Below, piece after piece: positions 55,610 to 58,342 of a stretch of DNA of 64,000 nucleotides. The first letter of the stretch is position 1, and the number at the start of each line of letters is the position of its first letter. The translations under genes and the position numbers were made by a program. The notes below the pieces were generated by a model. The model saw only the letters and a list, made by a program, of their open reading frames with translations, did not search any database and was not told the origin of the DNA. The stretch comes from Rubrivivax sp. Lineage in GTDB: Bacteria; Pseudomonadota; Gammaproteobacteria; Burkholderiales; Burkholderiaceae_C. The DNA is taken from positions 1-64,000 of the forward strand of contig JAURZM010000037.1 in NCBI GenBank assembly GCA_030653385.1. Reading direction: 5' to 3'.

Positions 55610-58342
55610 TCAGTTGCCGAGGATGACAGACTGGCGCCAGCGGGCCAGCGAATGGAACAGCTGATCCAACGCCCCGCCGCCCTTGCTGAGAATGGCCGTG
55701 GCCGACCTCGACAGCGCCAACAGCTCGTCTTCGGTCAGGATCATGCTGGTCCAGATGAACACCGGCGTGTCGCGCCAAGCCGGCATCTGCTTCAGGGCAT
55801 CCAGGGTCTGGAATCCGTCGAAGCCCGGCATCATCAGGTCCAGGATGATGAGGTCGGGGCGGTGCTGGTCAAGGTCGCGCAGCGCCTGGCGACCGTCGGC
55901 CACACACAGGGCTTCGCTGCCCAGCCCTGCCAGGGTGGCCGACATCAGGTCCAGCGCCATCGGCTCGTCGTCCACCACCAGCACACGCAAGGCAGCACCA
56001 TCGGCACGCTTGAAGCGCGCCAGCGCTTGCACCACCTCGTCGGTGCGGATGGGTTTGCTCAGCACGTCGGAGACCGGAAAACACGCCGCGCCACCCGACG
56101 AATCGGGCATGCTCAGGCCCAGCACGGGCGCGCTGCTGCTCGGTCCGCCCTGTCGCAGGCAGTCCAGCAGGACCAGACCCGCCTGGTCGGTCAGCACCAA
56201 GCCCAGCGTCAGGCCGGTGTAGGACCGGCCCGCTGCCATGCGCAGGGCCTGGGCTGCGCTGCCTGCGGTGTCGATGTCAAAGCCGGCTGCACTGAGGCCC
56301 CTGACCATGTGCGACTGCCGCGCCGGGTTGTCCTCGATCACCAGCAGACGCTGCGGCAGGGCTTCGCCGACCACCAACTCGGGGCCCGGCACCGTGACGC
56401 GAACCACGCAGTCCAGCACCAGATGGAAGGTGCTGCCCGCGCCCAGCACACTGCTGACCCCGACCTCGCCGCCCTGCGCTTGGACCAGCCGGCGTGTCAG
56501 CGCCAGTCCGAGGCCAGTGCCCTGGTGCTGCTTGTTGTAGCCGGCATCCAGTTGCTGGAACTCGCTGAACAGGCGTGGGATGTCAGCCGGGGCGATGCCG
56601 ATGCCGCTGTCCTGCACTTCGAGCCGGAAGCGTGCCGTGCCTTCGGCGCGTGCACGCACCACGATCTGGCCCCCAGCGGGCGTGAACTTGATCGCGTTGG
56701 AGAGGTAGTTGTACAGCGCCTGCTTCAGCCTCGCAGGGTCGAGGTGCAGACCCGTGAGCGTGGCATCGATGTCGGTCGTCAGCTGAAGGCGCTTGCGATG
56801 GATGGCGGTGTGCTGGATGTCCAGCACCTCCTGCACCAGGCTGTCCAGCTGCACCGGCTCGGGAAAGAACTCGAACTTGCCGGACTCCACCTTGGACAGG
56901 TCGAGCACATCGTTGATCAGCTGCAGCAGGTGATGGCCGCTGGTGGCGATGTGCCCCAGGAACTGCCTGTGCCGCGGCGACTCGACCGGTACCGCACCTT
57001 CGTGCAGCAATTCGGCGAAACCGATGATGGCGTTCAGCGGCGTGCGCAGCTCGTGCGACATGTTGGCCAGGAACTGGCTCTTCATGCGGTTGGCTTCCTG
57101 GATGCGCCGGTTTTCGGCTTCCAGCCGCTGGGCGGCCTGTCGCGCGTCCTGCGCCAGTCGGCGTTGTGTGATGTCGGTGACGATGGTGGAGGCCCCGACC
57201 GTCACGCCTTGCGCGTTGCGCAGCGGAGAGACGCTGACCGACACGTCGATCAGCCGGCCGTCCTGCGCCACCCGCTGCGTGTCGAAAGCCGCCAGCTTGT
57301 GGCCAGCCGCCAGCTCGGCCAGGATGCGCGCCTCTTCGTGCACCTGGTCCTTGGGCATCAGCATCGCCGCCGGCTGACCGATGGCTTCTTCGGCGCTGTA
57401 GCCAAACAGCGTCTGCGCTGCGCCGTTCCAGCTGGTGATGCGGCCGTCCATCGTCTTGCTGATGATGGCGTCGTTGGACGACTCGACGATGGCCGCCAGC
57501 CGGCTGGCAGCCGCCGCGGCCTGCAGCTCTGGTGTCATGTCGCGGAAGACCACGGCCATGCCACGCACGCTGCCGTCGTCGGCATGGGTCAGTGCGGCCT
57601 TCAGCTCCAGCGACGTGCGGCGGCCATCCAGGGACAGTGCCACCACTTCCCGCGGCTGGTCGATCGTGACGCCCATCTCGATCATCAGGTCCACGGGATT
57701 GCCCAGCAACAGCTCGGCAGGACGGTTTTCCCGCGGGAACACGTCCCAGTAGCTGCGCCCCAGGGCCTGCGCCTGCGTGCAGCCGAGCACCTGCTCGGCC
57801 ACGGCGTTCATGCGCGTGACGCGGCCCGCGCGGTCGGTGGCGATGTAACCCGCACCGATGCTGGCCAGCGTGACCGCCAGCCCCTGCTGGCTTTCGGCCA
57901 GGTGCTCTTCCACCGTGCGGCGGCGCGCCACTTCGGCTTCGAGGTCGCGAATGACCTGGCCCAGCTGCGCCACCGAGGGAATCGCCAGCGCGCGAGGAAT
58001 GAGCCGCCACAGCATCACTGCAGTGAGCAGCGACACCACGGCGGTGATCACCTTGGTCAGGGTCTGCAGTGCGTAATCGGGCTGCCAGATGGTCCAGATG
58101 CCCATCAGGTGTGTCACGCCGCAGGCAAAGATGAAGGCGCTGAAAAGCCACACGATGCCGCGGTGCGAAACGTCCTTTCGCTGCCGCACGAAGCTGACCA
58201 TGGTGAGCGGAATCGAGAAGTAGGCCGCTGCGATCAGTGCGTCGGCGCCCACCATCGACCACAGCAAACCGGGCGACCAGGTGAAGCAGTAGCCGTGCGG
58301 CAAATAACCGCTGCGACCCAGCAGCGAGGTCAGTGCATCCAT
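55610..58342 (-). CDS. Hybrid histidine kinase with an ethylene-receptor-like N-terminal domain
   Basis: A 910-residue membrane kinase. Residues about 25-115 form three transmembrane helices with the plant ETR1 pattern: Asp34, Tyr41, Ile44, Pro45 in AAAYFSIPLTMVSFV, and Cys74 and His78 in FIFACGVTHLMGIW. Two PAS domains (about 150-270 and 275-395) follow, then HisKA (His430 in SQFLANMSHELRTPLNAI), HATPase (NYLSNAIKFTP, DSGIGI, GTGLGLAL) and two receivers: a divergent one (Asp719, Lys763) and a typical one (Asp835, Lys887). ATG at 58342 starts the conserved part. A lone response regulator follows. Ethylene sensing is inferred. Confidence 0.9.
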   Translation of the reverse strand: MDALTSLLGRSGYLPHGYCFTWSPGLLWSMVGADALIAAAYFSIPLTMVSFVRQRKDVSHRGIVWLFSAFIFACGVTHLMGIWTIWQPDYALQTLTKVITAVVSLLTAVMLWRLIPRALAIPSVAQLGQVIRDLEAEVARRRTVEEHLAESQQGLAVTLASIGAGYIATDRAGRVTRMNAVAEQVLGCTQAQALGRSYWDVFPRENRPAELLLGNPVDLMIEMGVTIDQPREVVALSLDGRRTSLELKAALTHADDGSVRGMAVVFRDMTPELQAAAAASRLAAIVESSNDAIISKTMDGRITSWNGAAQTLFGYSAEEAIGQPAAMLMPKDQVHEEARILAELAAGHKLAAFDTQRVAQDGRLIDVSVSVSPLRNAQGVTVGASTIVTDITQRRLAQDARQAAQRLEAENRRIQEANRMKSQFLANMSHELRTPLNAIIGFAELLHEGAVPVESPRHRQFLGHIATSGHHLLQLINDVLDLSKVESGKFEFFPEPVQLDSLVQEVLDIQHTAIHRKRLQLTTDIDATLTGLHLDPARLKQALYNYLSNAIKFTPAGGQIVVRARAEGTARFRLEVQDSGIGIAPADIPRLFSEFQQLDAGYNKQHQGTGLGLALTRRLVQAQGGEVGVSSVLGAGSTFHLVLDCVVRVTVPGPELVVGEALPQRLLVIEDNPARQSHMVRGLSAAGFDIDTAGSAAQALRMAAGRSYTGLTLGLVLTDQAGLVLLDCLRQGGPSSSAPVLGLSMPDSSGGAACFPVSDVLSKPIRTDEVVQALARFKRADGAALRVLVVDDEPMALDLMSATLAGLGSEALCVADGRQALRDLDQHRPDLIILDLMMPGFDGFQTLDALKQMPAWRDTPVFIWTSMILTEDELLALSRSATAILSKGGGALDQLFHSLARWRQSVILGN

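Follow-up and report, generated by a model that had tools for sequence, protein, structure and literature searches.

A probable bacterial counterpart of the plant ethylene receptor and its partner response regulator in Rubrivivax

A gene of Rubrivivax sp. very probably encodes, judging from its sequence, a bacterial counterpart of the plant ethylene receptor, equipped with a small response regulator of its own. We analyzed positions 1 to 64,000 of contig JAURZM010000037.1 (assembly GCA_030653385.1), a stretch of 64,000 nucleotides referred to here as the window. The gene is an open reading frame on the minus strand (55610–58342) with an ATG start and a product of 910 amino acids. A GGGAG stretch lies upstream of the start codon, and the N-terminus of the kinase aligns with those of its relatives. 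We consider it highly likely that the product is a copper-dependent two-component ethylene receptor kinase acting with the adjacent DivK-like receiver. The features discussed below are as follows, with their basis in parentheses.

55610..58342, minus strand: hybrid histidine kinase P0001, 910 aa, with N-terminal ethylene-binding domain (open reading frame, residues, Pfam)
58271..58300, minus strand: residues 15–24, PHGYCFTWSP motif before helix 1 (conservation of H16 and C19)
57980..58267, minus strand: ethylene-binding domain PF25487, residues 26–121, with predicted helices 24–54, 61–86, and 90–119 (Pfam, AlphaFold)
57533..57886, minus strand: PAS domain 1, about residues 153–270 (borders inferred; Pfam gives a second PAS stretch without borders)
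57158..57487, minus strand: PAS domain 2, residues 286–395 (Pfam; matches to GGDEF-protein PAS and FixL PAS)
56879..57085, minus strand: HisKA with phospho-acceptor H430 in HELRTPLN (Pfam, motif, alignment of relatives)
56411..56740, minus strand: HATPase_c with DSGIG at 578 and GTGLGL at 608 (Pfam, motifs)
56018..56344, minus strand: receiver 1, about residues 667–775 (borders inferred), degenerate, with Gly714 at the phospho-acceptor site
55679..55984, minus strand: receiver 2, residues 787–888, intact, with D791, D792, D835, T865, and K887 (Pfam, alignment)
55206..55607, minus strand: single-receiver response regulator P0002, 133 aa, DivK-like (2 bp past the kinase stop)

The ethylene-binding domain

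The initial annotation had picked out seven residues of the kinase N-terminal domain (D34, Y41, I44, P45, I71, C74, and H78), and all seven are present at those positions. Its identification of the domain as ethylene-binding also stood up to a profile check. The Pfam profile of the ETR1-like N-terminal domain (PF25487) matches residues 26–121 on profile positions 2–97, 96 on each side, at 130.6 bits against a cut-off of 27 (E 2.6e-38), a score far above chance. We take Y32 of ETR1 to be the counterpart of Tyr41 in the window kinase. For six positions, D25, C65, H69, I35, P36, and I62, the ETR1 numbering appears in print (in passages of PMC11819568, PMC6586836, and PMC13012798).

The AlphaFold model of the domain consists of three long helices (24–54, 61–86, and 90–119) with a mean pLDDT of 89.2, preceded by residues 1–20 at a pLDDT of about 60. 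In the model, the three N-terminal helices correspond to predicted membrane helices, as in an ethylene receptor, and the predicted Cu(I) ligand residues C74 and H78 are both in place. No solved structure matched the domain by sequence (E ≤ 1) or by fold (E ≤ 0.001). Arg and Lys abound in the loop that joins helices 1 and 2; by the positive-inside rule, this loop would be cytoplasmic and the N-terminal motif would lie outside.

The best reason to expect that the window domain may bind ethylene is its homology to AzoEtr1. Domain matches occur in 18 of 72,556 plasmid records, including Azospirillum brasilense Sp7 plasmid ABSP7_p1, where an open reading frame of 525 residues agrees with AzoEtr1 as described in PMC11819568. 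The window domain aligns with AzoEtr1 without gaps at 48% identity over 120 residues and an offset of one, so that AzoEtr1 D35, C75, H79, and K98, in the numbering used in that paper's text, are D34, C74, H78, and K97 in the window kinase. Residues 1–130 of AzoEtr1 are reported there to bind 14C-ethylene saturably, with little or no binding in disruptants. On sequence grounds, the case that the window kinase joins a family of sensors described before in other bacteria is convincing. In the mechanism we propose by homology to ETR1 and AzoEtr1, the three membrane helices would coordinate a single Cu(I), with C74 and H78 as its ligands, and ethylene would bind that Cu(I) inside the helix bundle.

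What the seven residues determine is the site's chemistry and not its ecology. The domain could thus bind copper and an alkene while its natural signal is another small olefin or gas, or microbial ethylene, and not ethylene from plants. Some of the named carriers are, by their titles, groundwater or pond bins and not plant isolates, and ethylene of microbial origin is considered by the authors of the AzoEtr1 study as well (PMC11819568, in part). Against this, the tested homologue AzoEtr1 does bind ethylene and its carrier is reported to respond to 8 ppb (PMC11819568, in part). We regard a natural signal other than plant ethylene as a possible but minority reading, and a receptor for ethylene remains the preferred one.

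Conservation, the PHGxCxxW motif, and a variant class

To place the window protein among its relatives, we collected 138 loci, which gave 136 domains (L027 and L055 were dropped) and 121 distinct ones, the window's own (L001) included. D34 is kept in 118 of these, Y41 in 117, I44 in 113, and P45 in 114, counts biased upward because a scan with patterns over D34 or Y41–P45 supplied 80 of the 138 loci. The remaining positions fall outside the two patterns: I71 is kept in 116 of the 121, C74 in 120, H78 in 118, H16 in 117, and C19 in 118. All nine positions occur together in 105/121 domains.

H16 and C19 belong to PHGxCxxW, a site before helix 1. Across bacterial ethylene-binding domains, this motif, in the longer form PHGxCxxWxP (58271–58300 of the window), shows roughly the same conservation as the copper ligands. 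The literature on these domains, in the portions available, states no function for the motif His. The single N-terminal Cys of cyanobacterial receptors has been suggested to link dimers; ETR1 has two dimer-linking N-terminal cysteines, and the window kinase has a single N-terminal cysteine, C19 (compare PMC6682694, as far as its text was available).

Another genus of the phylum (that of genome G540) carries a homologue in 100 of 146 genomes at E ≤ 1e-6. There, Phe, Ala, and Arg stand at the Y41, P45, and H78 sites in 28/30 loci (L182–L209, with L182 and L193 duplicating L051 and L052), and 2/30 are canonical; the query, L051, is itself such a variant, so the proportion is a selected one, and the loci were not stripped of duplicates. 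Within the 28 variants without H78, H16 is kept in 27 and C19 in 25, and D34 is mostly kept. The variants show that a receptor-like class lacking the copper-ligand His is conserved, in which the predicted copper-ethylene site is mostly lost as a block. Copper-based ethylene binding in this class is doubtful. Since this sister class lost Y41, P45, and H78 together, the retention of all seven residues in the window protein is informative. Such natural variants are also ready-made controls for how the site works.

The same variants bear on the motif. We had considered that H16 and C19 supply or ligate copper at C74/H78, an idea now weakened, as both residues outlast the loss of H78; their retention in the class without H78 indicates that motif and copper site are not coupled. 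More fitting than a copper role is a dimer link or a role in the fold, in line with the suggestion for the cyanobacterial cysteine (PMC6682694, in part).

The Cu(I) ligands C74 and H78, together with a conserved His and Cys before helix 1, would also suit a domain that senses copper (Cu+) and binds ethylene only incidentally. However, I44, P45, and I71, which ETR1 requires to bind ethylene, are likewise conserved, and the four neighboring genes scanned (xdhC, xdhB, bktB, and a MarR-type gene) include no copper gene. We think a copper sensor very improbable here and retain the ethylene receptor. None of these four genes is ethylene-specific. Eight matches to copper P-type ATPases over cut-off in the source genome hint weakly at a possible copper supply, and 13 of 14 control genomes match as well.

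Kinase body and partner regulator

The Pfam order in the kinase is PF25487, two PAS stretches, HisKA, HATPase_c, and two receiver stretches, in agreement with the hybrid kinase described in the initial annotation. The HisKA His (H430), DSGIG, and GTGLGL are intact and at least one receiver is intact (D835), as befits a hybrid kinase. We compared 32 relatives, hand-picked from long hybrid kinases, and found H430 in all 32. In receiver 2 of the same set, D791 and D792 are kept in 32/32, D835 in 31/32, T865 in 30/32, and K887 in 21/32. The acceptor site of receiver 1 holds Asp in 20/32 and Gly, Ala, Ser, Asn, or Glu in 12/32. Receiver 1 of the window kinase is probably not phosphorylated, because Gly714 replaces the phospho-acceptor Asp. 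The earlier claim of two receivers therefore stands in part: two stretches are found and receiver 2 is intact, but receiver 1 is without its Asp, and we reject the idea of two working receivers.

PAS 2 is most similar in sequence to a GGDEF-protein PAS (E 8.3e-10) and next to the FixL PAS (E 4.3e-9). The second match would suit a kinase that senses light, redox state, or oxygen through its PAS domains, with the membrane domain mainly an anchor, and SynEtr1 is described as both an ethylene and a light receptor (PMC11819568, in part). A domain that served merely as an anchor, however, would not be expected to retain all seven residues, and such residues were lost as a block in the sister class; a kinase driven by its PAS domains in this way appears most unlikely. 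In the ethylene receptor that we favor, binding would instead alter the signal passed through the two PAS domains to the kinase core, and would probably lower autophosphorylation of H430, as is reported for ETR1 and predicted for AzoEtr1 (in the published passages available).

The phosphate would then pass to the free-standing DivK-like receiver of the adjacent gene (P0002); intact receiver 2 might be another target, or a sink for phosphate, and receiver 1 a putative non-phosphorylated module. P0002 has 133 residues, is a receiver only, and begins 2 bp after the kinase stop. Its best match among solved structures is DivK (E 2.2e-29), which marks P0002, the only regulator examined in this way, as a DivK-like receiver-only protein. 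For P0002, a role in cell-cycle or polarity control like that of DivK would be speculative.

The coupling of the kinase to a lone response regulator, also proposed initially, was borne out by its relatives. We examined 42 loci (L058–L099), 37 of which are testable, the others (L060, L061, L062, L072, and L095) ending too early. A relative of the regulator, 50–67% identical, starts between −6 bp and +96 bp of the kinase end in 31/37. There are six exceptions. In L075, the kinase frame is broken early and the regulator match lies about 2.8 kb on; L087 has a 35% match inside the kinase; L099 has a 50% match upstream; and in L089, L093, and L097, no regulator match was found. The kinases of L094 and L096, of 529 and 651 residues, end with the kinase core, yet both loci keep the regulator, so the constant partner looks to be the regulator and not the attached receivers. 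This arrangement suggests direct transfer from kinase to regulator.

The pair resembles AzoEtr1 and AzoRR(Etr1) in its ungapped domain, its PHGxCxxWxP start, its PAS-kinase body, and its adjoining gene for a receiver-only regulator, the last as described in PMC11819568. AzoEtr1 differs in having 525 amino acids and, as described there, one PAS and no receiver. Its regulator is a different kind of receiver from P0002 (27% identity over 95 residues), and the two ethylene-binding domains are placed apart in the tree. SynEtr1 (slr1212) and GeiEtr1/2 likewise place an ethylene-binding domain before PAS-type input and a kinase, and GeiEtr2 also ends in a receiver, as the window kinase does. Unlike the window kinase, the cyanobacterial receptors have GAF or light input, and the SynEtr1 partner slr1213 acts via transcription of a small RNA, whereas P0002 is without an output domain; the likeness here is by description (PMC6682694, in part). 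Plant ETR1, compared through parts of papers and the Pfam profile, shares the seven ethylene-binding residues, the three helices, and the hybrid kinase but differs in its GAF domain and in signaling through a Ser/Thr kinase.

More speculatively, Burkholderiales might have a dedicated ethylene pathway of their own design, with a copper-ethylene hybrid kinase acting almost always via one DivK-like receiver. Such a pathway would connect a gas from plants or microbes with circuits of polarity, cell cycle, or second messengers, and PHGxCxxW, on the outer side of the membrane, would be a further functional element of bacterial type, retained even where the copper-ethylene site is lost. We hold this extended picture only tentatively.

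Distribution and genomic setting

Two-component ethylene receptors had been called rare outside cyanobacteria and plants, a description that our surveys do not support. Over the Pfam cut-off, the domain is found in 9/81 genomes of the genus, 18/250 sampled genomes of the family (19 at E ≤ 0.001), and 28/398 species sampled from the phylum (29 at E ≤ 0.001), with the window's genome counted each time. There was no match in any of 14 control genomes. A scan of named genomes gave at least 555 confirmed relatives among 585 stretches; 80 among the matches listed span, by record titles, Alpha-, Beta-, and Gammaproteobacteria, Cyanobacteria, Verrucomicrobiota, Nitrospinota, and Bdellovibrionota. According to PMC11819568 and PMC7700396, both in part, proteins of this kind are also present in many proteobacteria. 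The ethylene-binding domain family is a minority trait yet widespread.

In a tree of 60 domains, in which 30/57 inner branches have support below 80, the window domain belongs to a set of 27 rows made up of 24 Betaproteobacteria, 2 labelled Gammaproteobacteria, and the window itself. AzoEtr1 and four cyanobacteria lie outside this set. Nine relatives (L060, L065, L067, L068, L069, L076, L078, L079, and L098) are collinear with the window kinase over about 900 residues at 51–61% identity. The receptor of a metagenome bin titled Klebsiella pneumoniae (L087) groups with Betaproteobacteria, and the bin is probably mislabelled.

Carriers named as strains include Rhodoferax sp. OV413, Aquabacterium sp. 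CECT 9606, and Ideonella azotifigens DSM 21438. According to a passage of PMC11819568, direct evidence of a microbial ethylene receptor and response comes from very few species so far. The Burkholderiales kinase-regulator pair and these named strains offer new laboratory hosts for the question of whether ethylene serves generally as a signal among plants, microbes, and soil or water bacteria. The conserved DivK-like partner and the natural variants add to the interest of the system. In the open-license literature, we found no paper joining Burkholderiales or phage with the ethylene-binding domain, and, judged by titles, none on a bacterial receptor under Bradyrhizobium and the ethylene-binding domain.

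The kinase-regulator pair sits between xdhC and bktB, as it does in L058 and L071. We found an xdhC match in 70/81 genomes of the genus and compared 30 xdhC loci. The receptor lies beside xdhC in three (the window's own, G068, and G073); bktB directly follows xdhC without a receptor in two (L149 of G021 and L167 of G030), in genomes without a receptor match; and the remaining 25 have neither within the stretch covered. Five genomes (G017, G051, G056, G062, and G063) have xdhC without the receptor alongside and carry the receptor on another contig, and the ninth receptor carrier of the genus, G029, gave no xdhC locus. The receptor is an accessory module in its genus. Its neighbors are common to relatives in the genus, which argues that the window contig is not foreign; the source genome is 93% complete with 7% contamination. 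No ACC deaminase was found over the curated cut-off in this genome, the one match scoring 225 bits against 392.

The next gene downstream (53957–55144) is a bktB-type beta-ketothiolase (NF006552, 656 bits) that stays under the cut-off set for NF042999, the BktB equivalog. In Azospirillum, ethylene is reported to increase polyhydroxybutyrate (PHB) (PMC11819568, in part), and we considered bktB as a link to PHB. We rejected this, since the xdhC-bktB order in two relatives lacking the receptor makes the neighborhood independent of it; the adjacency is probably coincidence.

In two scans of viral contigs, a single carrier was found, IMG/VR contig IMGVR_UViG_3300045996_002337 (349,660 bases). It encodes a stand-alone ethylene-binding domain of 139 residues without a kinase (L178:2995–3414), with PHGYC, YYSIP, and CGTTH blocks. 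This domain had no match in 50,697 phage records and no PHROG match. Within 6.3 kb, the contig carries five tRNA genes; it also has a terminase-like match (phrog_2, E 1.1e-38), which is supportive only, as 11/14 cellular controls also match. It looks like a large phage with a lone ethylene-binding domain, which could be a decoy or a dimer partner of host receptors.
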